64,000 bases of DNA from Tetraselmis striata (Eukaryota; Chlorophyta; Chlorodendrophyceae; Chlorodendrales; Chlorodendraceae). The DNA lies in contig VCJN01002174.1 of NCBI GenBank assembly GCA_006384855.1, positions 1 through 64,000 of the forward strand. Reading direction: 5' to 3'. The notes under the pieces were generated by a model. It saw only the letters and a list, made by a program, of their open reading frames with translations. It ran no database searches and had not been told where the DNA came from. The position numbers and the translations under genes were made by a program. Positions 9,075 through 47,974 of the stretch are shown piece by piece (position 1 is the stretch's first letter; each line of letters opens with the position of its first letter).

Positions 9075-12000
9075 TCAGACCCGACTCGTCTCTGGCGGCG
9101 GCTGCCCTCCGCCCCCGCCTCGGCGCCTCGCAACTGCTTGGACCTTCCGAGAGCGGCGCCTTGCTCCCCATAACACTGCCAGCAGAAACGCGACAACCGC
9201 TGCACCGGCCAACACAGCAGCGGTTGTGCCCGCTCGAGCAGACGAGGCGAGGCCGAAAGCTGCAGATTGCGGGAGCGGTTGCGAGCTGGAGACTGGCTGG
9301 CCGGGGGGAGGCTGCGAGGGGTTGTCGCCGCTGCTAGGGACCGACGAGTCCTCGCTGTCGTCGGAATCGTGCGCACCGTGGCCGCCGGGCGATACGCCAC
9401 TGTTCAGCAGGCGTTGCATGTCGCACAGCTCGCTTGGGCTCGTAGCGTCGTCGGAAGTGCACAGGCCGCAACTGGGGCCGCCGCGCCCCGTCCCGCAGGT
9501 GCATTCCCCGGACGCCCGATCACACGTCCCGGCGCCGCTGCACTCGGAGACAGCCAGCGGCGAGGTCGAGAGGTCGGTGTCCGGCCCTCCGCTGATGTAT
9601 CCAAAGGGGCACTTCCGCGAGCAGTCGGCGGCGCAGGAGACGCTCTCGCCAACCTCGCACACTTCGTTCCCGCAGATGCCTATGCGGCACCCACCAGTGA
9701 AGGATTAAAATGGTTTATATGGCCCGCGAGTCGTCAATTCGCAGCCCGCAGAAGGTTTCCACGGAACCATTGCAATCCAATGTACGACACCGCAAAGACA
9801 ACTCGGCCATGGATGCACTCAGATGCCAACTCCAGGCCTTTGAACCAATGTTACTGTGCACAAGTATCGCATGGGGACGCTGACCCACCTGTGCGCTCCG
9901 CGAGGTTGAGCACCATGGAGTACATGACGACGGTGGTGCTGCCGTAGCTGACGGAGCTCTCCGCCGCCGGGGCCGCCATGTACACCGCTGCCTGACCGAG
10001 CCGGGCAACGGCCTCTCCCATTGTGGGCGGCCTGACCTCGGCGTCGGGAGGAGGCGTCGCGCCACCTGCGCACATCGAAGCATGCACGCTGAAGGCCACG
10101 GTACAGCCCTAAAACTCAACCGCCCAGCACGATACCTCCAGGTAATCCAATATAGTAATCCAACTATAAAACTATATAATATGGTGTATCTAATCCAATC
10201 TAATCCAACCTAGTCTAATCCAATCTAATATTATATATTATGTTATTTTATTTACCCTATATTAGCTTGTCTAATCTTATCAAATCCAAACTAACTTAAT
10301 ACAATCCAATTCAATCAAATCTAATTCAATCCAATCCAATCCAATCCAATCCAATCCAATCCAATCCAATCCAATCCAATCCAATCTAATCTAATCTAAT
10401 CTCATCTAATCTCATCTAATCTAATCTAATCTAATCTAATCTAATCTAATCTAATGCAATCCAATCTAATCTAATCTAATCTAATCTAATCTAATCTAAT
10501 CTAATCTAATCTAATCTAATCTAATCTAATCTAATCTAATTTAATCTAATCCAATGAAATCCAATGAAATCAAATCAAATCAAATCCAATCCAATCCAAT
10601 CTAATCTAAACTAATCTAAACTAATCTAATCTAATCTAATCTAATCTAATCTAATCTAATCTAATCTAATCTAATCTAATCTAATCTAATCTAATCTAAT
10701 CTAATCTAATCTATTTAATCTAATTTGAACCCTAAAACCTGCCGCACGCCTGATGATGACAGCGGTGAGAATGAAAGCGTACCGTTGCCGGCATCCACCG
10801 CATCAGGAGGGCCCTGGGCGCCGCGACTGCCGGGTCTGCCACCTATCACATAAGTCACCCGCACGTCCACCACAGCAGCAGGCACCCGGCCGCCGCCTGC
10901 CGCCCCACCGGACCCCGGCGCGTCCCCTCCCCGGCCGGGCTCCAGGCGCAGCCAGAGGTTCTGCTCCGTCTTGTACACCGGCGGGATACCCTCGGCGGCG
11001 ACCGCGACCGCTTCCGCATCCCACCCCGGCTGGCCGCTCTTCTCCGGGAACACGCGCGCCAGCAGCGCCTCCGCCGTGCGGACAAACTCGAGGAACTTGT
11101 CGGAGTCCGGGTCGCGCAGCACCGCGGCCTCCGCCGCCCTCTCCAGCGTGACGGTCACCGTGGTGGCGCACGCGCTATTGCCGCCGCACACGCCGCAGTC
11201 GTCCACCTCGCCGGCGCAGCACAGCCCCCCGGCGTCCGTGCCGGTGGACCCTGGGAGGAAGTCGCAGCAGAGGCCAAACGCATCCCGGACGCTGCAGGCC
11301 GAGTTGGGCGGCGCGGGGGTCGGCGCCGGTGCTGGCGGTGAGGCGTGGCTGCCTGGAGCCACGGGCGGTGGCAGCGGCTGCAGCACCAAGGCGGCCGTGT
11401 CGAGCCCGTACATGACCGGCCCGCCGAGGGCGCCGTAGAACAAGTCGCCGCCGGGCGGGGTGAGCTGCAGCAGCGGCTCGACTGGCCCGGGTGGGCGGTG
11501 ACCCCCCCGGGAGCCACTGGGGGCGCTGCTGCGCTCGTCTTGATCCCGCGGGGTGCCGCCGCCGCTCTCGCCCGGCCGAGGTGCGATGCCGCGGCCGAGG
11601 GGCGGCTGCGGCGGAGCGCCGATCAGCCCATAAAAGCCATACAGTGCCTGCGCGGCCACAGAGTGTCCGCGCTCGTCCGCCGCGCCTGGAGCTGCCTGGC
11701 CGGGCAGTTCGGCACCGCGCGGGCTCGATGCGACGCCGTAGTAACCGTCGTAGATCCCGGCCAGCGTGACCACATTCGATGTCGGCACCGAAGGCCGCGC
11801 CGCGCCGCTGCCGCTCTGCCCATCACCCGCCTGGGGAGCCTCAGCGGCCGGGCGACTGGGGGGCTTGCCGCCAGCGCCACCCGCCGCCGGGCTGCCTGGA
11901 CCCCCGCTGCCTCCCGCACGCACGCCGCCGGAATTGGCGTGATAATATCCCAGCTCATCCGCGCCATCGCCGCGCCATTCGATGTGCACTCCGTAGACGG

Positions 12001-15000
12001 CCATGTTGGCCCCGTACATGACCGCCCCGTCGCCGGGAAAGAACAAGTCGCCCAGAGGGTGGTCGCCGACATCGCCGGGTGCGTTGACAGGCGGCCTTGG
12101 CCGATGCTCAGGCGTGCCGGGGGGCGCCCCGCCATCCGGGGCGGGGCTGCCGTCATCGCTCACCGGCTGAGGTGCGCTGCTGGGAGGCATGACCGGGTGC
12201 AGGGTGGGGGGCGCAGCAGCGGGAAGGAGCACGCACAAGCCGTGCAGCAGCTGCAGGGTCTGGGCGTCCATCATGGCCAGAGCCGCCTCGGGGTCGGAGG
12301 CCGCACCCGCCAGGCTTGTCACCAGGCCGTAGTACCCGTCCCGGAGCCCACTCCACGGCGAGGTGCCCTCCCCGGAGGCACCGGGCGCTGTGGCGGACTG
12401 CTCGCCATCCGGCACGGAGCCGCCGCAGCCGCCGCCGTCATCGCCCTGCGGCTGGGCGCTGCCAGTGGAGGCGGTTGGCAGCAGGGCGCCGCCGCCGGCC
12501 GCCGCGGTGAGCCCACCCAGGCCGTACAACGTGGTGCGAGGGGCGCGCTCCTCCGCGGTGTTCAGAGCCACACCCGGCGGGGTTGAGGGGAGCGCGGCGC
12601 CGCCCCCCGTTGCCCCGAGGCCGTAGTACCCGTCATAGCGCTCCGTCAGCGTGTGGATATCCGATGCCGGCATGGCTGAACCAGCAGGGCCGGGGTCCCC
12701 CTCCCCAGCTGCCGGGGCATCCTCCGGTCCAGCTCCGCTGCCATCATCTGCAGATGCCGGCCGCCCCTCCGCGCTCTTGCCACCAGAGGAGTCTGTTCCA
12801 GCGGCGGTCGGGTCGTGGTTGATATTGCCGCCATCGTCCTCATCCGAGGTGTCTCCCCCAGGGCTGGCAGGACCACCCTGGCCTGCAGCCGGTACGCCGT
12901 CAGCATCGTCCACATCTTCGGTGCCGCTGTCATCATCCGCTCCTGGGCTGCCGGGGCTACCAGGGTACTCCCCCCCTCCTGGCCCCCCACTGCCAGCATC
13001 ATCATAACCATCCTCAGCATCCCAGTCGTCATCAGCCCCGTCATCACCTTGCGCTCCAGGGCTGCCTGGGACCCCACTGCCTCCGGCTCCCCGGCCACCT
13101 CCATCAGCATCATCACCCTCAGCATCCCCGTCATCATCATCCGCGCCAGGGCTGCCAGGATCGTCCGCTCCCGCAGGTCTATCACTGCCAGCATCATCTC
13201 CAGTGTCGGCATCCGCTCCAGGGCTCCCGGGGCTGTCAGAGTCCTCCCCCCCTCCTGCCCCCCCGCCGCCACCATCATCATCATCAGCAGCAGCATCCCC
13301 GTCATCACCCCCATCCTCAGCGTCATCACTGTCATCATCTGCTCCAGGGCTGTCGGGGCTACCAGGGTCCTGCGCGCCTCCATGTCTCCCGCTGCCATCA
13401 TTCCCGTCATTATCCCCATCATCATCATCCACAGCATCATCAATGTCATCATCATCAGCGCCAGGTCTGCCGGGGCTGTCCGGGTCCTGTGCGCCTCCAG
13501 GTCTCCCGCTGCCACCATTCCCGTCATCATCCCCATAATCATCCTCAGCATCATCATCAGCATCCGCTCCAGGGCTCCCGGGGCTGCCAGGGTCCTCCCA
13601 ACCTCCTGCTCCCCCGCTGCCACCACCATCATCATCATCATCATCATCATCACCAGCAGCAGCATCCCCATCGTCATCATCCTCAGCATCAGCATCATCA
13701 TCCGCTCCAGGGCTCCCAGGGCTGTCCAAGTACTGTGCGCCTCCAGGTCTCCCGCTGCCACCATTCCCGTCATCATCCTCATCGTCATCATCATCAGCGT
13801 CATCACTGTCATCATCCTTGCCAGGGCTGCCAGGGCCCCCTGCGCCACCATGTCTCCCGCCGCCATCAACATCTTCAGCATCATCCTTATCGTCACCATC
13901 CTCAACATCCCCGCCATCATCATCATCTGCGTCAGGTCTGCCGGGGCTGCCTGGGTCCTGCGCGCCTCCAGGCCTCCCGCTGGCACCATTCCCGTCATCA
14001 TCCCCTTCCTCAGCTTCCTCTGCAGCCCCGCCGTCATCAACATTCGCTCTAGGGCGGCCGGGGCTGCCAGGGTCCTGCTCGCCTCCTTGTCCCCCGCTGC
14101 CACCATTCCCGTCATCATCCCCATCGTCATCATCCTCAGCATCATTGCTGTCATCATCATCGCCAGGGCTGCCGGGGCTGCCAGGGTCCTGCGCGCCTCC
14201 ATGTTTCTGGCTGTTACCATCATCCTCCGCATCCCCATCGTCATCATCATCTGCACCAGGGCTACCGGGGCTGCCAGGGTCGTGCGCGCCTCCAGGTCTC
14301 CCGCTGCCACCATTCCCGTCATCACCCCCATCATCCTCGTCATCATCCTCAGCATCATTGCTGTCATCATCCTTGCCAGGGCTGCCGGGGCTGCCAGGGT
14401 CCTGCTCGCCTCCTTGTCCCCCGCTGCCACCATTCCCGTCATCATCCCCATCGTCATCATCCTCAGCATCATTGCTGTCATCATCCTTGCCAGGGCTGCC
14501 GGGGCTGCCAGGGTCCTGCTCGCCTCCTTGTCCCCCGCTGCCACCATTCCCGTCATCATCCCCATCGTCATCATCCTCAGCATCATTGCTGTCATCATCA
14601 TCGCCAGGGCTGCCGGGGCTGCCAGGGTCCTGTGCGCCCCCATGTCTCCCGCTGCCACCATCATCATCATCATCATCATCATCCCCATCGTCGTCACCCT
14701 CAGCATCATCACTGTCATCCTCCGCTCCATGTCTGCCGGGGCTGCCAGGGCCCCCTGCGCCCACATGTCTCTCGCCACCACCCTCATCCTCATTTCCATC
14801 GTCATCATCCGCGCCAGGGCTGCCGGGGCTGCCAGGGTCCTGCCCGCCCCGAAGCCGCATGCTCCCATCGTCATCGTCGCCCATACCCAGCTCAGATCCG
14901 CGCCTGGCCCAGAAGCTCTGGTCCACCACGCCCCCGTCATCATCCGCCGCAACTGCGACTGCAAAAACATCATGGGCCGACATGTCTTGGTAAGACCGCT

Positions 15001-15376
15001 AACCCGCCAGGCATTGGGCCGTGCTTTTGCTGGCGTCGCTAACTAATGATGCGTGCCGTGGACTGCTGTTAAAGCACCAGATCATGATCAACCAGGTGTG
15101 ATTTTGTTGGTGTATAGCTAGACACCGCAGCCTTCGCTGTTGATCACACAGTGTCATCCGGCCCCAAATACAGAATGTTACGTCGCCGCTCATTCGTCCC
15201 AGGTGCATATTGCCGGAATCCTTACCTTGGGAATGCAGGCCAAGCAATAGAAGCGTCAATACCACAGCTGGTATGGCTGCACTGCGGGAGAGAGTTCGAG
15301 CACGATTTCGGGTACTCGTCCCACTTCTGCTGCCGTTCGCCCCGGGCTGCCTGGCTGGATGTACCATTGCAATCAT
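9075..15376 (-). CDS. Asp-rich DPGSPGSPG-repeat type I membrane protein, 1702 aa
   Basis: Probable cell-surface or wall protein; no known enzyme domain. Exons on the minus strand are 15376-15226, 14958-10783, 10065-9889 and 9679-9075 (TGA). All three introns are GT-AG in phase 1 and the sum is 1703 codons. Exon 1 supplies a basic N-terminus and a hydrophobic stretch (AAIPAVVLTLLLLGL, about residues 33-47), taken as the secretion signal. Exon 2 encodes about eighteen acidic units of 30-45 residues built on DPGSPGSPG plus poly-Asp, then a Gly/Pro/Ala-rich half with recurring YDGYYGL and YGLGG motifs, then the Cys-rich VDDCGVCGGNSACAT module. Exon 4 has Cys pairs, an EGF-like segment (ECSGAGTCDRASGECTCG), a Pro/Ser linker, a membrane span (AAVLAGAAVVAFLLAVLWGA, near residues 1655-1674) and a basic cytoplasmic tail. 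The Cys-rich module resembles green-algal extracellular proteins. Calcium binding by the Asp tracts is inference. The start could be the in-frame ATG at 15367. Confidence 0.72.
10139..10726. repeat. (TAATC)n pentanucleotide array in an intron
   Basis: Nearly 600 bases of TCTAA/TCCAA pentamers with point variants, degenerate at the left and almost pure at the right. It fills most of intron 2 (10066-10782) of the surface-protein gene, whose transcript would carry it as GATTA repeats. Confidence 0.92.
12840..14890 (-). repeat. Coding minisatellite for the acidic DPGSPGSPG units
   Basis: About eighteen direct repeats of roughly 100-135 bases inside exon 2 of the surface-protein gene, always in frame. 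On the plus strand each carries a CAGGGCTGCCGGGGCTGCCA-like core followed by TCATCATCC tracts that encode Asp on the minus strand. Units around 14385-14505 and 14505-14625 are nearly identical over 120 bases, a sign of recent copying; units near 13000-13300 are more diverged. The tracts look open on the opposite strand too, because TCATCA repeats avoid stops in several frames; those frames are shadows. Confidence 0.85.
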
Positions 15377-20985: not shown

Positions 20986-23900
20986 CCACATCAAAAACGC
21001 ATGATGCCCATTGTGGTGCCAGCCCGCGGCGCTCACACTTGCGGCTTTGCGAACCCCCTCTCAGAATCACACGACTCCTCCGCTTTTATTTGCGAGACTC
21101 GCGTGTAAAAGCATATGTGAGGGTCGGCTGCTTGGAATCTGGTCGTCGGCCATAGAAGATTGCTGTATACGGGCTCGGCAACTCACATTCTAGCCAAACG
21201 GGTGTGTCATTCGTCTCCGTATGTGCTTTGCGACTGCGACACTATACCACATACACCGGAGTGAATCAAAAACGCATGATGCCTTTTGTGGCGCCGGCCT
21301 GCGGCGGTCATACGTGCGGCCTTGCGAACCCCCTCTCTGTGTCACACGACTCGTCCTTCGCCTTTTCTGCAAGTCCCGCGTCACGGCCGTCGGCCTTGTA
21401 ATGTTGCTATGTACAGGCATATATATGGGGGTCGGCTGCTTGGAGTCGTCGGCCATGGAAGTTTCCTGTATATACGGGCTCGGCAACTCGCAATCTAGCC
21501 GAACGGGTGTGTCATTCGTCTCCGTATGTGTTTTGCGACTGCGACACTACATACCACAAACACCGGTGAAAAAAATCAAAAACGCGTGATGCCCTTTGTG
21601 GTGCCGGCCCGCGGCGCTTACACTTGCAGCTTTGCGAGACTCGCGTAAAAGAAGCATATATGAGGGTCGGCTGCTTGGAATCTGGTCGTCGGCCATAGAA
21701 GATTGCTGTATACGGGCTCGGCAACTTGCAATCTAGCCGAACGTGTGTGTCATTCGTCTCCGTATGTGCTTTGCGACTGCGACACTATACCACATACACC
21801 GGAGTAAATCAAAAACGCATGATGCCTTTTGTGGTGCCGGTCTGCGGCGCTCATACTTGCGGCTTTGCGAACCCCCTCTCTGTGTCACACGACTCGTCCT
21901 TGGCCTTTTCTGCAAGTCCCGCGTCACGGCCGTCGGCCTTGTAATGTTGCTATGTACAGGCATATATATGGGGGTCGGCTGCTTGGAATTTAGTCGTCGG
22001 CCATGGAAGTTTCCTGTATATACGGGCTCGGCAACTCGCAATCTAGCCGAACGGGTGTGTCATTCGTCTCAGTATGTGCTTTGCGACTGCGACACTACAT
22101 ACCACAAACACCGGTGAAAAAAAATCAAAAACGCGTTATGCCCTTTGTGGTGCCGGCCCGCGGCGCTCACACTTGCGGCTTTGCGAACCCCCTCTGAATC
22201 ACACGACTCCTCCGCTTTTATTTGCGAGACTCGCGTGTAAAAGCATATGTGAGGGTCGGCTGCTTGGAATCTGGTCGTCGGCCATAGAAGATTGCTGTAT
22301 ACGGGCTCGGCAACTTGCAATCTAGCCGAACGGGTGTGTCATTCGTCTCCGTATGTGCTTTGCGACTGCGACACTATACCACATACACCGGAGTGAATCA
22401 AAAACGCATGATGCCTTTTGTGGTGCCGGCCTGCGGCGCTCATACTTGCGGCTTTGCGAACCCCCTCTCTGTGTCACACGACTCGTCCTTGGCCTTTTCT
22501 GCAAGTCCCGCGTCACGGCCGTCGGCCTTGTAATGTTGCTATGTACAGGCATATATATGGGGGTCGGCTGCTTGGAATTTAGTCGTCGGCCATGGAAGTT
22601 TCCTGCCTATACGGGCTCGGCAACTCGCAATCTAGCCGAACGGGTGTGTCATTCGTCTCAGTATGTGCTTTGCGACTGCGACACTACATACCACAAACAC
22701 CGGTGAAAAAAATTAAAAACACGTGATGCCCTTTGTGGTGCCGGCCCGCGGCGCTTACACTTGCGGCTTTGCGAACCCCCTCTCTGTGTCACACGACTCC
22801 TCCACTTTTTGTTGCAAGCCGCGCACCATGGCCGCCGGCCGTGTAATGAAAGCATATTTGGGGGTCGGCATATTTGAGAATGTGGTCGTCGGCCATAGAA
22901 GATTGTTATGTACGGGCTCGGCAACTCGCAGTCTAGCCGCACGGGTGTGGTATTCGGCGCCGTATGTGGTTTACGACTGCGGCATTACCACATAGACCGC
23001 AGTAACTTCATTTAAAACGCACGAATACCCTTGGCGGTGCCGGCCCGCGGCCCTCATACTTGCGGGTTTTCGGATCCCCTCTCTGTCACACGACTCGTCA
23101 TCGTCCACTTTTATGTTGTACGCTACGCACCATGGCCGTCGGCCGTGCTCCCTTGCTATATACAAGCATATATGCAGGTCAAGAGCTGAGAATATGGTCG
23201 TCGGCCATATAAGATTTCTGTATACGGGCTCGGCAACTCGAAATCTAGCCGCACGGTGTGGGATTCGGCTGCGTATGTGCTTTGCGAATGCGGCACTACC
23301 ATAGACCCCGCAGTAACTTTCTCTAAAACGCATGATGCCCTTATTGGTGGTGCCGGCTTCCCGTAACGTGCTATGGAGTTGTATCTGGACTGCGATGGTA
23401 AGTGCGTCGCACTCTGCACGGTGAGCAAGATTGTTCAACCCTGACTAGGGTATACTTCTTGCCCTAATTCGGTTTGTAGTAATGAGCCAAATCTGAAGGT
23501 CCCACAGACCCACGCTGCTCGGTGCCGTCGGACTCAAGGGAGGCTGCAGTAGGCACTTGGATGCGCAACTCCCCCAGAGGCTCGGAGCTATATTTGTTGT
23601 ATATGTGAGGTCGGCAACTGACAATCTAGCCGAATGCCAGATGTTGTATTCGGCTCCATATGTATGCTTTACGACTGCGGGACTCATTTCCACATTGTAA
23701 ACCGCAGTATCCCCTCCCCGGGGATATCTTTACCAAAACGCGTGGTATTGCACCACCCCTCTCTGTCACACGACTCCTCCGCTTTTAGTTTGGAAGTCGC
23801 GCCTCATGCTCGTCGCGCCCGTGCTGTAATCTTGCCATGTATAAGCATATATGGGGGGGGGGGGGGGGGGGGGGGGCAGCTGAGAATATGGTTCGCCAGG

Positions 23901-24654: not shown

Positions 24655-26515
24655 ACAGGGCAACAATCTGCGGCGGGGCGCAACAATCTGGGGCTTTACG
24701 TAAGCCAATGTGAAGTTCTCAGGCGAGCACCTTGCTAGCAATCGGATTTTGTCATACAAGTATGCAACAAATACTTGGACAAGGAAAGTGTTTCAGCCGT
24801 GTAGGCATTTACTCCTGCCGAAGGCAACAATCTCCGGTGCAGCACAGCAATCTCGCCGTTGCAAATATGATGTTAGTACATGAGGGTGTGGCTATTTATC
24901 TGTGTCTTATCGTCGAGACCTTGTGCATGCATAATACTTCTGTATGCCGCATTATCCGGGTACTGCAAGGCGTGCAGCCGTGTACGGATTTAAAATATGC
25001 CTAAGGCAACAATCTGCGGCGGGGCGCAACAATCTAGGGCTTTCACTAAGCCGAAGTGAGGTTCTCGGGCGAGCACCTCGCTAGCAGTCGTACTTTATCG
25101 TCAAGCCTTTGCACTTTTGTCATACAAGTATGCAACAAATACCCAGACATGGAAGGTGTTTCAGCCGTGTAGGCAGTTACCGCCTGCCGAAGGCAACAAT
25201 CTGCGGCGCAGCGCAACAATCTAGGGCTCGCCGTCGCGAATATGATGTACCTAGATAGGGGGTGTGGCTATCCACGAGTTTCTTGTCGTCGAGCCCCTGT
25301 GCATGCATAATACTTATGTACGCCGCATTATCCGGGTACTGCAAGGCGTGCAGCCGTGTATGGATTTAACATATGCCTAAGGCAACAATCTCCGGCGCAG
25401 CGCAACAATCTAGGGCGTTCAGTCCTAAGCCAAAGTGAAGTTCTCGGGCGAGCGCCTCGCTAGCAGTCGTACTTTCCCGTCAAGCCTATGCGCTTTTGTC
25501 ATACAAGTATGCAACAAATACCCGGACATGGAAGGTGTTTCAGCCGTGTAGGCAGTTACCGCCTGCCGAAGGCAACAATCTGCGGCGCAGCGCAACAATC
25601 TAAGGCTCGCCGTCGCAAATATGATGTACCTAGGGGTGTAACTATCCACGAGTTTCTTGTCGTCGAGCCCTTGCGCATGCATAATACTTCGCTATGCCGC
25701 ATTATCCGGGTACTGCAAGGCGTGCAGCCGTGTATGGATTTAACATATGCCTAAGGCAACAATCTCCGGCGCAGCGCAACAATCTAGGGCGTTTATATAG
25801 TACTAAGCCAAAGTGAAGTTCTCGGGAGAGCACCTCCCTCGCAGTCGTACTTTCTCGTCAAGCCTATGCGCTTTTGTCATACAAGTATGCAACGAATACC
25901 CGGACAAGGAAAGTGTTTCAGCCGTGTAGGCATTTACCGCCTGCCGAAGGCAACAATCTGCGGCGCCGCGCAACAATCTAGGGCTCGCCGTCGCAAATAT
26001 GATGTACCTAGGGGTGTAACTATCCACGAGTTTCTTGTCGTCGAGCCCATGCGCATGCATAATATTTCTTTATGCCGCATTATCCGGGTACTGCACGGCT
26101 TGCAGCCGTGTATGGATTTAACATATGCCTAAGGCAACAATCTGCGGCGGGGCGCAACAATCTAGGGCGTTTATATAGTACTAAGCCAAAGTGAAGTTCT
26201 CGGGCGAGCACCTCGCTAGCAGTCGTACTTTCTCGTCAAGCCTATGCGCTTTTGTCATACAAGTATGCAACAAATACCCGGACAAGGAAAGTGTTTCAGC
26301 CATGTAGGCATTTACCGCCTGCCGAAGGCAACAATCTGCGGCGCAACGCAACAATCTAGGGCTCGCCGTCGCCAATATGATGTATCTGTAGGGGTGTACC
26401 TGTCCACGAGTTTCTTGTCGTGGAGCCCATGCGCACGCATAATACTTCTGTATGTCGCATTATCCGGGTACTGCAAGGCGTGCCGCCGTGTATGGATATA
26501 TTAAAACATGCCTTA
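24655..26515 (+). repeat. 375-bp repeat units, direct arm
   Basis: About five tandem units marked by ATATGCCTAAGGCAACAATC at about 24998, 25372, 25746 and 26124, a period of 374-378 bases. Each unit has two GCAACAATCT joints, the CATACAAGTATGCAAC block and the GCATTATCCGGGTACTGCA block. Reverse-complement copies form the arm at 19380-20115. Confidence 0.85.
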
Positions 26516-33200: not shown

Positions 33201-36200
33201 TGTTCTTATTGGTTGCCTGCAAGCCCACTTTGAGGCTTATAATAGAGATTCTTTTAGGTGCGTCGGCGCCGGTATAACAAAGACAGACATCCTAAACAAA
33301 TTAAAGCATATCTTAGTATGCATCCCAGCCGATTCTGCAGGGTCAATTGACGGGTCGCTATGCCATGCGCTGGGCCAATGGCAAGTTGGCAACAGGAGAT
33401 GAGGGAGGAAAGACATGTTGGTGTGGAATGCGCGGGGTTGTACTCAGCGGCGCCGCAACTCGCCTGCGGTCACGCTCTCCTCAAACGCGCGGTGCTGCGC
33501 CTCTGCTCGCGCCAGCGCCCCCAGCAGCGCCTCCACCTCATCAAACACCGCCTCAAAGGCTGAGCCGCCGGCGCATTGCGCTGTGGCGGCGGCAATGACG
33601 GCGTCGCGGGTGATGAGGGGTGGCGGCGATGCCATGGCGGGCGCCAGCTGCGCCCAGCCGTGCAGAAGGAGCCAGCGGAGGATGTCGGTGCGGGCAGCCC
33701 CCACCACCACGTCGTACACAAAGCAGCGCAGCGGCGAGCGGGGGGCGCCTGCGCCCTGCGCGGCACAGCACGCCCACATGCTGTCATCAGTGCAGGGTCG
33801 CAACGCGCATGAAGCGCATGTGCACAACAGTGCTGTCCGAGGGCTGTTGGAATCACGGAATTGCACCGAGGCGCGCAACAATGAAGTGGGTTCGGGAATT
33901 ACAGAAGTAAATAATCGTTTGGCATCGCTGGGTCCAAGATTCCGTGCAATGTTTTTGTTTTCGCCCCCGGGACAGACTGGCACCAGTGAAACCCTTGCAG
34001 CGTCTCAACGACGGCCGTGCAATGTTACTGATGTATTCTGATGTGTTTATTTACCCGGAGTGTAGTCAGAATGACAACTACGTATATGGGGTCTGTGCTT
34101 TGTAGCAAAACAACTTAATGCCGTGTATTTGATATCCTGCAGGCTCCTAGTATCCCGCTTTCATCCTTGCGGGTACACATACTGAGACCATGGAAATAAC
34201 GGCGCCCGCATGTTCCCAGCATACCTGGAAAACTCGAATACTTCCAGATGAATTCAGTGTAATTTCTCCCCCCCCCCCCCCCCCCCCCCCGGGGGCGGGG
34301 GCAAGAACAAGTATAGTGTATACCGAACCCAACACGTGATTACGTCGGTATTAGTGAGGGTGTGATGAGGCCTCCTCAGGGGGCGCAGTTTGCGGCTCAC
34401 CATGTCCCCGCGCACTGACGCCAAGTGCTCCTCCACGGCGTAGCGCAGCGGCCGGTGGTCCGTGAGCGCCGGCGCCACCTCCTCCAGCGGGCAGCCCGCC
34501 GCGACACGCCGCGCGATGTCCCCATCCGCCGCCAGCACGTGTGAAGCGAGGTAGGCCTCGGCGCGGCGGCGGAGCTCCGGGGCGCTGCTGCGCAGAGCGC
34601 GCCCCAACCAGCCGGTGGGCGTGCGCGGGAACGCGGCGCGCAGCTCGGGGCTGTCGGCGGCGCAGCGGCGCCGGCCGAGGAGCAGCGCCTGCACCCCGAG
34701 GTCAAACTGCGCGTCCACTGCCGCGTCAATGGCGCGCCGGCCTGCGTGAGTGGGAGTGGAGTGCAGCGCACACGGAGGGATGGCGTCAGAGTAGTAGGCG
34801 CTGCAGCTGACGTTGTTCCTCACATCGACAGAGGTAGAGCGGAGACCGACATAGCCGCCTGAGGATGGGAGTGGCCAGAATGCCACCACCACTGGCAAGC
34901 TTGGTATTCTGCTTGTAATCATCTGACCGCGGTGGTATTCAGGAATCAAGGACGCCATTATGATGGCAACTGCGTGCCTGTCATGTGATTGCGATGGCGC
35001 TGGTGTGAGAACGTGTTTTTGGAGGCAGCCATGTTTGATAATTCCCAGGCATGCAGTGCTGGAACGCCGCCACGGTGCGGCAACATCGCATGTGGCACGA
35101 GCCGGCCTATCACTGGCGGCAACGACGTACAGTGATCTCGCCTTATTTGACGAGAACATGGCGATGGCTGCTCTAGTGTGGCGGCACTGGCGATACTGGC
35201 ATTGAACGGTGTGACTACGCGGCGACGAACCTGTGACTGCTGTTCATCGTGTGACCTCATTGGCTATGTCGCTGCAGACTCAAGCTTGGGGAGGGGTGGG
35301 GGATGGCCTCGTGACAGCATGATGGCGCAGACAGGCGGGCATGTGAAGGGGCGCTGCGGCGCACCTGCGCTGTCCGTGGCGGTCAGGCAGCGCTCCAGGT
35401 GCGCCGCCCCCGCGCCCGCCGCGTGCGCCAGCAGCCACAGCAGCGGCACGGGCTGCCGCTGCTCGCAGGCAATGTGAAGGAGGGTGCGGCCGCCGCCCGC
35501 CCGCACGCGGTGCGGGCGAACTCCGGCCGCGAGCAGCGCCTCGAGGAAGGCGCCCGAGCCGTAGCCCGCCGCCAGCGCCATCAGCACCTCCCCCAGGCTT
35601 CGCCCCCGCATCTCCCCGGCCGCAGGCCCGCTCGCAACGTGCTCGTCCGTGCGGTCCGTGGCAGCTGGGGACGCTGCGCTGGCGAGGCTGTTGGCCAGCA
35701 GCCAGGGCGCCTCGCGTGGCAGGTGGTGCCGCAGCTTCTGCACCACATCGCCGTGGACAATGCGCGGCGCCGCCACCTGCAGCCGCCGGAGAAGAGGGGA
35801 GGGAGGGGGGGGGAGGGGGAGGGGGGATCAGCCGTCAACTGCCAGCGCGGTTCCAGATGAATTGGCAGGGCAACAGCATCACCGGAGCCATGCAGTGGGT
35901 TCTGTACACATCATTGTTTGTGAGAGGGAAAAGCTATAGTTACCTGGAATCTACGGGTGCCGACGCACCGAAAAGGGACCTTATAATAAGCCTCAAAGTG
36001 GGCTTGCATGCGGCCCATAAGAACACCCTCTATAGGTCCGCTATAGTTTCGTCTGCATTTAACCTTTGACACGCATGGCAGCCTCTTTGTCGCATCAGTG
36101 GTCTTACTGCCGCATCGGCGCCGGTATTGGGATATACCACACATCTACCACGGCATCTCTGCCTTGATGCTGCACAACAGTTCATTGTTTTGTGACCCGC

Positions 36201-38375
36201 GCACCCAATTAACTGTTGTGGATATGATGGGGCCGGATTTGGCGGAATACTGGACCGTGCAGCAGAAAGCGCACACCCACACATACACACATACACAAAA
36301 ATCATTTGATTAGTTGGTCGCAATAACCCAGCATCCGGGTGGTTCCGTGTGACACAGTAAAGAAGAAGACGAAGAAGAAGGAGAAAAGCAGGCGTGGAAT
36401 GACGCCTTGTCATGTGACCCAGATGCATCTTCCCCTGCCAGGTCGAGGCGGGATTGCCCACCTCCCGACGGCAGATAGGGCACGGCAGCGTTGCAGGTAG
36501 CGCAGGCAGGGTGCAGGGACTGTCAGCGGCGGCGGCGTGGTACGCAAACAGCTCCCGCGTGCACCGTGTGCACAGGCGGTGCCCGCACTGCAGCGCGCAC
36601 GCAAAGCCCGCCGCCGGGAGCGCGTCGATGCAGATGCCGCAGACGTCGCCGCAGGTGCCTGCCTGGTCGCCGCACTCGCTCCCCCCTTCCCCATCCCCTT
36701 CCCCTTCGCCGCTGTCGCTGTCGCCGACTTCCCACACTGGGGCGGCAAGGTCCACCAGATGCTCCTCCAGCAGCCAGGCAAAGGTGTGCCAGTTGCCGTC
36801 CTGCGCGAGGGGGTAGAGGGGGGCCGGCGCAGGGCATGTAGGTGGGAGGGGGGGGGGGGGGGGGGGGGGGGCGGGGGGGGGGCACCCATACGGAAGCAGG
36901 TCAGCAGGTCATGCGCCATCGCCCTTCATCCTTCATCCTTCCTATGACGCCGCCACACATGCACCCTTGTAATCACCCCCCTGCCCCCTCCCTCCTTTTT
37001 CTTCCTTGCCCCCGTGCCCCTCACATGGAGAGGAGAAGGGTGGAACCTTGACGAGCAGGTCCAGGCGCGGCACCGCGTGCTCGTTGAAGCGGTCCACAAA
37101 GAGGCGCAGCGTGGCCACCATGGCGGCACGCCGGCGGGGGCCGCCCCGCGCGCCCACGTCGTCCAGCAGCAGCAGCTCCCGCCGCGCCGCGTCGCCGCCC
37201 ACCCGCATGCCCTCTCGCTGCAGAGCCTCCACCAGCTGCGACACTGCAGGCGCGACGCTGAGGCCCTCCATGCCCAAACTACCGCCATGGCCAGGGGCGC
37301 CATCATGCGCGGGGTCCGCGCCCTCATCGGTGCCATCGTCCAGGGCATCATAGTCGCCATCCTCCGTGCCACTGGTGTCGTAACACAGTGCGCCATTGCG
37401 GCCAGTTCCGCTCCCGTCATGAGCGTCCTCGCGAGCGCCATCACGGGTGCTGTCGTGGGCGTGGCCCTGGGCGTCAGCGGCGCACACATGTGCCGCAGTA
37501 CATGCGCCACCCACCTTATCGGCGGCATTGTCCCAGCCCGCCCAGCGCAGCAGCGTCTCCGCCCACCAGCGGGTCCAGGCCCTCCCCGGCGCCGCGGCGC
37601 CCTGCACGGCGGCCTCACCCGGCGCGCACGCGCAGTCGGCCAGCGTGAAGGCAGCGTGCCGCCGCGCGCCAAAGCCAAAGCGCCACACGTCCAGCAGCCA
37701 CGCCACCACGTCCGGCTCCGACTTGGCCACCGCGGTCTGCAGCGTAAGGTAGCCGTCCGCCTCCTCGTGGGCGCTGCGCCCCGCTGGCGGCCCCACTGCT
37801 CCCGCCGCACTCGCCTCAAACTCCGCCCACCAGGGCTCCGCGTGCACGTGTGCCAGGATGGCAGCCATCTTGACGCTTCCCACAGGCTGGGCGCATGTCC
37901 CGGCTGCCGCCGCTGCCGCCGCCTCCTCCTCCGGCATCCAGAGCACGCAGCGCACGTGGCTGAGCGCCGCGACGCGCAGCGCGCTGTCCAGGATCTGCAC
38001 CACGTGCGCCAGCCGCGCCGCGGGCCGCCGCCCCGCGCCCCTCAGCGCCGCCTCTGCCGCCGCGCGGGCCGCCTGCACCGCCGGCAGCACCTGCGGCCGG
38101 GGCACAGCCTCAGGCGGGCCGCTTCCTCTGCGCGCGTGCCGCAGTGTAATAGTGCACATGCACCGTAACAGTTCAACGGGCCGTCAAATATATATGTTGA
38201 ACCCAGAGCATGTTTACAATATATCGTGTTATGTTGCATTGCCGACATGTCAACAAAGTAATGGAGCTGGTATTTAGACACATGTATCCCCGTACATACT
38301 TAAGGCATTGTTGTCAGCACCAGAAGCTTTATGTATATAAGCTGATGACAGCCTCTCTCCCCCTCTCCCGCTCTG

Positions 38376-38418
<43 letters not shown>

Positions 38419-39147
38419 AAATATAATTTACATGAGCTAGCAGCAGAAGGCGATATCGGAAATCACCAAAATAATACACACAAAATATGCGATGACTGAG
38501 TCTAGTCGTATATCATTTTACATTATTCCTTCAGGCAGTGCGCACCGCGGCTTCATCACCGAAGTGCAGCACCGCAATTGCGTCCACCAGCGCCTCCACG
38601 CACTCCACCGCGCCCTCCCCCGCCGCTGCCGCCAGCGGACTGCGCCCCGCGCTGTCCGGGCGCAGGTGTACCGCGGCGGCCGCAGCGTCGCGACGGCGCG
38701 CAGCCCAGCGCAGGGTGGCCGGCGCGCTGCCGGCGACGGCGTGGTGCAGCAGCGTGGCGCCGCCGCCATCCGCGGTGGTCACGGGCACGCGCAGCTCGTC
38801 CAGCAGGTAGGCCAGAACCGGCAGGTTGGCATGCCGCGCTGCCACGAAGAGGAGCTCCTCCTGACAGAAGAATGCATCCCATAGCGTGTGCTCAACTCCC
38901 TTAACATTATATCTTATTATTTGTAAATAAGTAAATGTGCCGGGGAAACATTTGCCGATGCGCAACGCGATGCGACGCCGGCCCCCACCTGCACGAGGTG
39001 CGGGTCCACTCGTAGCTCGTCGTACAGCCGCACCCATACTGCGGTGGACTCACCACTGCGCACCATCTCGCTCAGCTCGCGCAGCGCGGCTACGGTGTCG
39101 GCCGCGGCGCCGCGGCTGCTGCCCCGTGCGCTGCTGCGCGAGATCAT
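28075..39147 (-). CDS. Ankyrin-like/RING-finger protein, probable E3 ubiquitin ligase, 1362 aa
   Basis: Probable RING-type E3 ubiquitin ligase with flanking ankyrin-like repeats, reminiscent of plant XBAT/XB3 proteins but with the RING in the middle. Twelve exons on the minus strand: 39147-38989, 38860-38546, 38090-37515, 37235-37047, 36800-36462, 35776-35365, 34741-34401, 33755-33464, 32940-32570, 31484-31244, 30162-29645 and 28410-28075 (TGA). Phases fit at every junction and sum to 1363 codons. Ankyrin-like helices: ELLFVAARHANLPVLAYLLD and GATLLHHAVAG in exon 2, TLLHIACEQRQPVPLLWLLA in exon 6, ALCVAVSRGG and LATAALCGQLELLQ in exon 9. The RING in exon 5 is C3HC4 with metal ligands near C467, C470, C485, H487, C490, C493, C520 and C523 (CGICID, CGHRLCTRC, CPIC). 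Exon 10 has an extra YCRCAACGG cluster. Intron 8 starts with GC. The start ATG at 39147 is the first in frame. Substrates are unknown. Confidence 0.75.
30893..31059 (+). mobile_element. Short inverted-end element, copy 3
   Basis: Full copy, 167 bases, from GGTGCCGACGTGG to GTGTCGGCGCC, in the intron between exons 31484-31244 and 30162-29645 of the ankyrin/RING gene. Its inner block GCAGACGAATATATAGCGGA and the GAGGCTTATGG block match the other copies. Confidence 0.7.
31201..31215. repeat. G run (C run in the transcript)
   Basis: Pure G run starting 28 bases inside the intron that follows exon 31484-31244 of the minus-strand gene, so the transcript carries C here. Confidence 0.85.
33098..33270 (+). 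mobile_element. Short inverted-end element, copy 4
   Basis: In the intron between exons 33755-33464 and 32940-32570 of the ankyrin/RING gene. The right end CGTCGGCGCC is clear; the left end is degenerate. The centre (TTTAGACGAAACTATAGCAG) and GAGGCTTATAATAGA match the family. Confidence 0.65.
35956..36122 (-). mobile_element. Short inverted-end element, copy 5
   Basis: Full 167-base copy in opposite orientation to copies 1-4, from GGTGCCGACGCACC to CGCATCGGCGCC, in the ankyrin/RING intron between exons 36800-36462 and 35776-35365. The inner TATTATAAGCCTC and GTTTCGTCTGCATT blocks are the reverse complements of the family blocks. Confidence 0.7.
36848..36890. repeat. G-rich homopolymer
   Basis: Over 40 bases, almost all G, about 50 bases upstream of the acceptor of exon 36800-36462 in the minus-strand gene, where the transcript would read C as an extended pyrimidine tract. 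Confidence 0.85.
38377..38418. repeat. (CA)n microsatellite
   Basis: About 20 CA units in the intron between exons 38860-38546 and 38090-37515 of the ankyrin/RING gene. Confidence 0.95.
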
Positions 39148-46300: not shown

Positions 46301-47974
46301 CGCGACTTTGGTGGAAGCCAAGACTATCTATTGTCGTTAGTGGAAGTCAAGACACTTTGGTTTTCCCGCACGCTAGACCCGCGTGTGAAGACCCGCCGTC
46401 CCTCGACCACCAGCACCGTCTTTCTGGATGCGAGTAACCGGCCTATACCGGTTATGTTGACGGCTGCCGACTTTAAATCGCTTTCTTCGAAAGGCGAGAG
46501 CTAAGACATCGCACATCTCTCTTCTCTCTCTCGACCCCCATTACCACTGCGCCGGCCGCGCGGGTTGGTGGTACTGGTACCCTCCCCTCTTTTGCGTCGT
46601 GCCTCACTGCTATGACACGCTCCATCTTAGCGCCGACTACTAGGCGCTTCAGCCTTGCCGGCCGATTCATTTTTTGCCCCGTCATTGGTCACGGTTCAAC
46701 ACGCGACTTGTGTCCGACTCGACAGCCGTAGTCGAAAGAGCGGCCTGTCTGGCCGGCTACTTCTACCGCGGCGTGCCACGGTTACTCGTCCCTTAGCAAT
46801 CGACGTGTCTCCTGATTGAGCGCGGGCGAGTAGCCACATGCCAACCGCATAATAATGCACAGTTTGGACTACCCCCGGAATATTGTACTCGCGTGTCCGA
46901 CTACACGGGTCATAGAGTGCGACGCAACTGGCAAGCTTGGGCGGACATCGACGCCGGGCGCATCAAGGTCGTCGACAGTATCCGCAACGGCGTGCGCATC
47001 TAGTTCAAGGAGGGGGCGCCTGCCCGTTTTTACGAAGTAGTCGTCTCGATGGAGGGCGCCACTCCCGACAAGCGAAGTTACATGAATGGCGACCTGGCTC
47101 GTTTCTTGTCTAGCGGAGAATGGGAGGAAGGCCACTGCTCGCGGTGGGTCTCCCGACTCTTTCTCGTTCCCAAGCCCGGCGTCAACAAGTGGCGGCTCAT
47201 CATCGACCTGCGACCCCTTCACCAGTACGAGGAGCGAGGAGTCAAGCTTGAGCTTCGAGACCCTCACTCGGCTGCGTCATTTGGCTCGGCCCGGCGACTA
47301 CATGCTCTCTATATGGACATGCGGGACGGCTTCTACGCCGTCGGCATTGGCCCCGAGGACCGAGACTACTGCATCGTCGATTACCGAGACAAGCTTTACC
47401 GACTGGCGGGGCTCCCCATGGGATGGAGCCTAAGCCCCTGCTACTTATGCTCCTTCACTGCCGCGTTCAACCGCCACATGCGTCGCCCGACTTTCAGTGA
47501 CCCCTCACGGAATGCGTCGGTCCAAACTCGGGATGAGACGACGCCAGACACTGCGACCTCACGTCGTCACTTCCGCGGTTGTCGCATGCTCATCTACATG
47601 GACGACTTTATGTTTTTCGCGTCAAGTCGGGCGCACGCCTACGCCGTACGATACCGCATTACCTCGCTACTGGGGAAGCTGGGCCTCGACATCCCGATAA
47701 AGGCCAGTGGGAGCCGGTGCAACGGTTGGAGTACCTCGGCATGAAGTTTGACTCGCAGAACGGTTAGTACGATTCGGCCCCCTCAGCATATAAACTCGAC
47801 TCACTCGTTGTAAAGGCCCTCGGTCTCATCCGCCGTGCTAAGCGCGACAAACGATGGTTGCCTGTGCGAGAGCTCGCGAACGTCTCCTGGCAAGTCGTGC
47901 CCATCTTATGTTCCTCGCCATTAAGCCTGCCCGGTTCTACCTTCACGGCGCACCCGCACGGTGTTTAAAATCGG

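Follow-up and report, generated by a model that had tools for sequence, protein, structure and literature searches.

The window, i.e. the whole stretch of 64,000 nucleotides analysed (positions 1-64000 of contig C1760 in the 224-Mb, 2903-contig assembly of Tetraselmis striata), contains on its minus strand a gene of four exons, which when joined encode 1702 residues with zero internal stops (Table 1). The three junctions proposed in an earlier note on this DNA (15226/14958, 10783/10065 and 9889/9679) proved exact to the base, with GT-AG borders at all three introns, and the observation as a whole was borne out, the gene model, the acidic SPG repeats, the Cys/EGF-like stretch and the membrane span being all readable from the sequence. 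In the unique part of exon 2 the sense frame has 0 stops and each of the remaining five frames has 3 to 15; in the second copy of the gene (see below) this part is likewise open in the sense frame alone, with 4 to 15 stops in the others. The repeat block gives no proof of its own frame or strand, being free of stops from end to end in three of the six frames in the window, and in four of the six in the second copy. An antisense reading, for which one frame is open over this block (691 aa, with Ser/Pro-rich readings on that strand), was rejected because the adjoining unique region has 3 to 15 stops in its antisense frames and none in the sense frame. The (TCTAA)n pentamer array inside intron 2 has about 91 copies and differs between the two gene copies, given how few bases of this intron can be aligned.

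Table 1. Features of the gene and of its predicted product, in the direction of transcription (window coordinates)
Feature	Position	Strand	Remarks
Exon 1	15226..15376	-	Start codon plus the greater part of the signal segment, whose hydrophobic core is PAVVLTLLLLGL; donor CCAAG/GTAAG, same in second copy
Intron 1	14959..15225	-	GT-AG; 2/3 inter-copy indels not multiples of 3
Exon 2	10783..14958	-	Acidic repeats, YG region, CC/CGVCGGN module, start of X domain; inside a 1427-aa stop-free frame
Acidic SPG block	12767..14839	-	19 units, 691 aa, D 210 + E 32
YG unit R1, residues 812-874	12488..12676	-	R1 vs R3 z 11.0, exceeds all 2000 shuffles
YG unit R2, residues 915-975	12185..12367	-	Degenerate; R2 vs R3 z 9.0, exceeds every shuffle
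YG unit R3, residues 1105-1171	11597..11797	-	Pairwise scores with R1 and R2
CC..CC..DDCGVCGGN module, residues 1272-1314	11168..11296	-	14 aligned modules
X domain, exon-2 part	10783..11167	-	Aligned with paralogs; domain spans exons 2 to 4
Intron 2	10066..10782	-	Contains (TCTAA)n array at 10270-10724; 370/717 bases alignable to second copy
Exon 3	9889..10065	-	Remainder of X domain in exon 3; 98.3% identity to second copy, zero indels
Intron 3	9680..9888	-	GT-AG
Exon 4	9075..9679	-	CGNxVCExGE, EGF-like, acidic/Pro linker, membrane span, basic tail
CGNEVCEVGE..CAADC..C module, residues 1504-1525	9609..9674	-	CxNxxCE conserved in paralogs
EGF-like repeat, residues 1548-1575	9459..9542	-	PF07974 EGF_2, 16.2 bits, below cut-off
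Membrane span, residues 1653-1673	9165..9227	-	Hydropathy maximum 2.4; short basic tail after

Elsewhere in the window there are two tandem arrays (24747-26497, 378 bp x 4.7, 91% matches; 22241-23357, 310 bp x 3.6, 75% matches), a plus-strand reverse transcriptase match (47004-47741, RVT_1, 4e-9) that probably marks a retroelement, and, on the minus strand, ankyrin repeats (38534-39049, 4e-10) followed by a RING XB3/XBAT31-like match (36033-36908, 2.1e-6, below cut-off), the last two possibly belonging to one ankyrin-RING ubiquitin ligase gene. The rbcL of the assembly is of the green type, with 1gk8, which we take to be the Chlamydomonas rbcL structure, as its best solved-structure match. The atpB of this assembly is unsplit; that of T. 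marina is reported to be cis-spliced (PMC10776064). Three T. chui qPCR primers were compared with the assembly: one matched with 1 mismatch, the other two gave no match with up to 3 mismatches; the PGK reverse primer differs at 6 of its 24 positions.

Acidic repeats, YG units and stalk of the predicted protein

A strong hydropathy window at residues ~29-55 marks the signal segment (signal region ~1-54), in agreement with the secretion signal claimed in the earlier note. The same note had counted "about eighteen DPGSPGSPG-Asp units" in the acidic block; the block comprises 19 SPG-anchored units, each 27-46 aa long, but the exact DPGSPGSPG occurs in only part of them, and the variant anchor starts include GPGSPG, YPGSPG, DSDSPG and VPGSPG. 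Acidic residues account for 35.0% of the block (242 D+E in 691 aa, against 29 K+R+H), and TRF describes the array as 12 copies of a 114-bp period with 67% matches. Pfam gives no family within the block at E-values up to 1, and therefore no recognised Ca-binding motif. The highest acid fraction over 150 aa is 0.41, compared with 0.13 to 0.23 in nine paralog frames, some of them partial, none of which has an acidic block. With a degenerate DPGSPGSPG DNA pattern (one mismatch at most), all 17 matches in the 224-Mb assembly fell inside the two copies of this gene, the reversed control giving one match; by this anchor pattern the acidic block is confined to one locus.

The middle of the protein, previously described as a Gly-rich half, is indeed rich in Gly and Pro, but it is not featureless, having three degenerate DGYYG...YG units (R1 to R3). 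This repeat claim is based on pairwise scores against shuffles: R1 and R2 both match R3 (Table 1), and R1 against R2 gave a z of 4.3, the best of 2000 shuffles scoring higher (52 vs 48). A fourth pair, T2/T3 (z 4.5), was beaten by its best shuffle and was dropped as a repeat. In the middle region 10 of 17 Tyr residues precede Gly, which was matched by 3 of 20000 shuffles. A blastp self-comparison of the YG region listed no second match that would indicate an internal repeat.

The Cys-rich stalk contains the CGVCGGN module that had been claimed, which in the second copy reads CGVCDGS. Across 14 aligned modules C11, C12, C27, C28, C35, G36, V37, C38 and C44 are shared (numbering of the first sequence in the alignment); the target has DD where the family has DE, so that CC..CC..D[ED]CGVC is present, and it shares the invariant Cys. 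For the X domain, a single-sequence structure model of the exon-2 part of the stalk reached a mean pLDDT of 37, unusable for a fold search. The X domain as a SEA domain was unsupported by profile comparison, as the X profile and that of the upstream GSVAV domain fail to align; of the ten paralog frames scanned, one gave a SEA match (E 0.018, below cut-off).

The EGF-like segment described earlier exists as a stretch, but is sub-threshold by Pfam (16.2 bits for EGF_2, PF07974, against a curated cut-off of 22.1). A profile search of the N- and C-terminal parts had also been suggested, and Pfam, over pieces jointly covering residues 1-1702, yielded this EGF_2 match alone, with neither a TSP1 nor a pherophorin domain (Pro is confined to SPG and short runs), so that the target does not qualify as a pherophorin or Hyp-rich wall protein; NCBIfam gave no match for the two pieces scanned. 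The C-terminal membrane span proposed at the outset is among the strongest hydropathy windows of the protein (residues ~1651-1675).

A stalk family with different ectodomains

A protein search of the genome gave 24 matches, and a DNA pattern for DECGVCGG gave 19 sites (0 for the reversed control). With near-identical pairs counted once, and with the target, C165 and C2629 included, whose motif differs, the family comprises about 16 loci, a lower bound given the strictness of the DNA pattern. The combination of modules, which was new to the earlier note, is special in its acidic block only, since about 15 further loci in this genome carry the stalk as well. At the 19 pattern sites plus C165 and C2629, CxNxxCE is found at most 2.6 kb downstream of CGVC in all 21 cases, whether in frame with it or not; 18 of these sites go on to an EGF pattern, and 17 have a strong hydrophobic segment at least 60 residues past CxNxxCE. 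Among the misses, the frames of C1134, C2062 and C2380 close at, or within ~60 bases of, the end of the DNA examined, and that of C2762 ends after the EGF, with no membrane segment located. The target shows the family traits, with CxNxxCExGE followed by the EGF-like repeat and the membrane span, and its stalk has 25-32% alignment identity to five paralogs; the PF07974 cut-off is exceeded by five of the ten paralog frames scanned.

In C1357, C225, C649, C165, C2629 and C2880 the elements CC/CC/DECGVC, X domain, CxNxxCE, EGF and membrane span come in the same order as in the target, but the paralog ectodomains that could be read consist of FYG repeats, or of TSP1, to which C165 adds a GDSL esterase that was not detected in the others. 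Upstream of the stalk, C225, C1711, C1357, C476, C649 and C2880 have 7 to 11 FYG codons each, of which the degenerate YG units of the target are reminiscent, and TSP1_ADAMTS domains are present in C165, C2629 and C553. These assignments cover the paralog loci other than C1134, C1821, C2156, C2380, C2688 and C2762; a DNA pattern for FYG had no matches, probably because Ser was fixed in it as AGY. The paralog on C2156/C2157 has two tandem CGVC-X-CGNxxCE modules, then EGF and a membrane span.

The earlier note knew CGVCGGN from green-algal extracellular proteins, but it is no hallmark of green algae: the CGVC module alone has ADAMTS5 as its one match among solved structures (E 0.02), and a viral-collection contig protein carries the motif too. 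That contig (L061, 1526-3115), the one recovered by the short module search among 41 pattern matches, encodes a 530-aa protein with DECGVCGGDGSSC, then DDCGVCNGNNAC; CGVCGG is the one visible feature shared with the stalk, and shows that the motif occurs outside eukaryotic surface proteins. When the 432-aa stalk alignment was used against the viral and prokaryote collections, there were 53 and 288 pattern matches, with no relative by tblastn. Neither CGVCGGN nor CGVCGG led to a paper in full-text literature searches, most subscription papers lying outside the searched set. Searches on thrombospondin, EGF or SEA in green algae showed nothing on the stalk family in titles and abstract starts, and the same applies to Asp-rich proteins with green algae among the matches listed. 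The main text of a green-algal matrix review (PMC10762512) mentions neither EGF nor thrombospondin.

The second copy and constraint between the copies

The assembly holds a syntenic second copy of the gene on C1103, which we read as the other allele or haplotype, since both flanks align, with ~96% identity. Seven locus pairs of the family are ~94-99.8% identical (97.7-99.8% for the six other than the target pair), which suggests that both haplotypes are retained in the assembly. In the C1103 copy the start, all splice borders and the stop are intact, giving a frame of 1643 aa. Its acidic block has 631 aa, with 226 D+E (35.8%) against 25 K+R+H and 16 anchors, two of which span double units; the charge density is therefore similar in both copies, though the number of units differs.

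Each of the 19 indels that separate the coding sequences of the two copies has a length divisible by three, which is true of just 5 of the 21 in non-coding sequence (16 of 21 are not); however, 14 of the coding indels sit in the repeat and would be multiples of three in any case, so that just five give independent support. Outside the repeats dN/dS is 0.61 (919 codons), with 0.26 for the X domain, 0.73 for the YG region and 1.73 for the Cys module, the latter from 55 codons and 6 differences only. The single substitution affecting a Cys lies in the repeats, outside the stalk. In the repeats themselves the constraint is mixed: the 5' part (324 codons, 167 differences, dS 0.44) has a dN/dS of 0.31, and the 3' part (195 codons, 26 differences) one of about 1.2 (1.17). 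The dS of 0.44 indicates that the 5' alignment probably pairs non-orthologous units.

Possible roles of the acidic ectodomain

The sequence gives good support for a large, apparently secreted protein that is anchored in the membrane and bears acidic SPG repeats on a Cys-rich/EGF stalk. Within its algal surface-protein family it is an acidic variant present at one locus, interesting and not categorically new. On its role, we tentatively favour, at slightly below an even chance, a type-I membrane protein that presents a polyanionic, divalent-cation-binding brush. The signal segment would route the protein into the secretory pathway, and the C-terminal helix would act as an anchor, leaving the short basic tail on the inner side. 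A stalk made up of CC/CGVCGGN, X domain, CGNxxCE and EGF, with presumed disulphides, would keep the ectodomain off the membrane, and the YG units may self-associate or cross-link via tyrosine. The outermost ~690 residues would then be the polyanionic brush itself: a chain that carries about 210 net negative charges and is interrupted by SPG turns every 27-46 residues should stay extended and attract divalent cations, and it may bind and concentrate Ca, Sr or Mg, either at the cell surface or along the luminal face of secretory vesicles. The composition of the block is compatible with such an ion-binding or spacer role.

The strongest rival, which is possible though less probable, is a passive spacer, i.e. 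a tolerated minisatellite, growing by GAT slippage and unequal exchange, that lifts the ectodomain with no specific ion role; it holds this rank because the two copies are so closely related and their repeats show mixed constraint. Slippage of GAT codons can lengthen acidic repeats with no selection on charge, and the 114-bp tandem array, the difference between 19 units and 16 anchors (two of them double), the elevated dN/dS of the 3' repeats and the several open frames of the block all fit this explanation. The near-equal acid fraction of the two copies despite unit turnover is what would be expected if charge rather than sequence were kept, and together with the low dN/dS of the 5' repeats it argues against a mere spacer, but weakly, as equal charge density means little in copies that share recent ancestry.

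Poly-Asp proteins stabilise amorphous calcium carbonate in animals, and by analogy the acidic ectodomain could face a vesicle lumen and do the same as a mineral-matrix protein, which we consider improbable. Its acid content and secretory layout would suit this role, as would the occurrence of Ca/Sr carbonate micropearls in chlorodendrophyte algae. According to PMC9292747, these lie below the plasma membrane in species including T. striata, and come with S-bearing organic matter that is probably protein; compartments enclosing them are regarded as likely but unproven in PMC10103758. The fuller version, in which a membrane-tethered poly-Asp/SPG protein would nucleate or stabilise Ca/Sr carbonate, an acidic minisatellite having taken over from the original ectodomain in a surface family that bears an ADAMTS-like motif, presupposes a chlorodendrophyte host and is speculative and very doubtful.

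Equally doubtful is an adhesion or recognition receptor (for mating, flagellar or other contact) with the acidic part as ligand: the modular EGF/TSP1 family with membrane spans near the C-terminus would agree with it, but Pfam gives no recognised adhesion domain in the target past the sub-threshold EGF. Least probable of all is a wrong gene model or a decaying gene, for which one could cite that the model is drawn from genomic sequence, that the non-repeat dN/dS is not low, and the dN/dS of the Cys module, but against which both copies keep frames, splice sites and stop, with all coding indels in-frame and the one Cys-involving substitution in the repeats rather than in the stalk.

If the polyanion binds Ca or Sr, as in the cation-binding brush that we favour, the gene would be a candidate for cation handling at the algal surface or vesicle, with a defined block to test; if the carbonate reading were true, the gene would open the carbonate inclusions inside cells of the Chlorodendrophyceae to genetic study. 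The family also suggests a route to new ectodomains, with one stalk at ~16 loci bearing TSP1 (one with a GDSL esterase), FYG repeats or a one-locus polyanion.

Among known systems, the mollusc poly-Asp mineral proteins aspein and asprich are secreted, with Asp-rich low-complexity sequence, and belong to the soluble matrix, with no EGF stalk or membrane span known in them. The target resembles them in its predicted secretion and Asp-rich low-complexity block, but differs in having an EGF stalk and a membrane span. With the ADAMTS family it shares the DxCGVCGGDxSxC motif (ADAMTS5), and the TSP1_ADAMTS domains of the paralogs C165, C2629 and C553 fit a link of the CGVC motif to these animal proteins. 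The target is, however, predicted to be membrane anchored, and by Pfam it has no protease, disintegrin or TSP1 domain; membership as an ADAMTS or ADAMTS-like protein was rejected because neither a metalloprotease nor a TSP1 domain was found. When the stalk profile is compared with solved structures, EGF-bearing mastigoneme proteins come first: the tubular mastigoneme EGF proteins (PDB 9ufe) match over the EGF and the region just upstream, the CGVC module lying outside the match, and have EGF-like repeats as the target does (5.3e-10 with the stalk profile, 1.9e-4 with the target alone).
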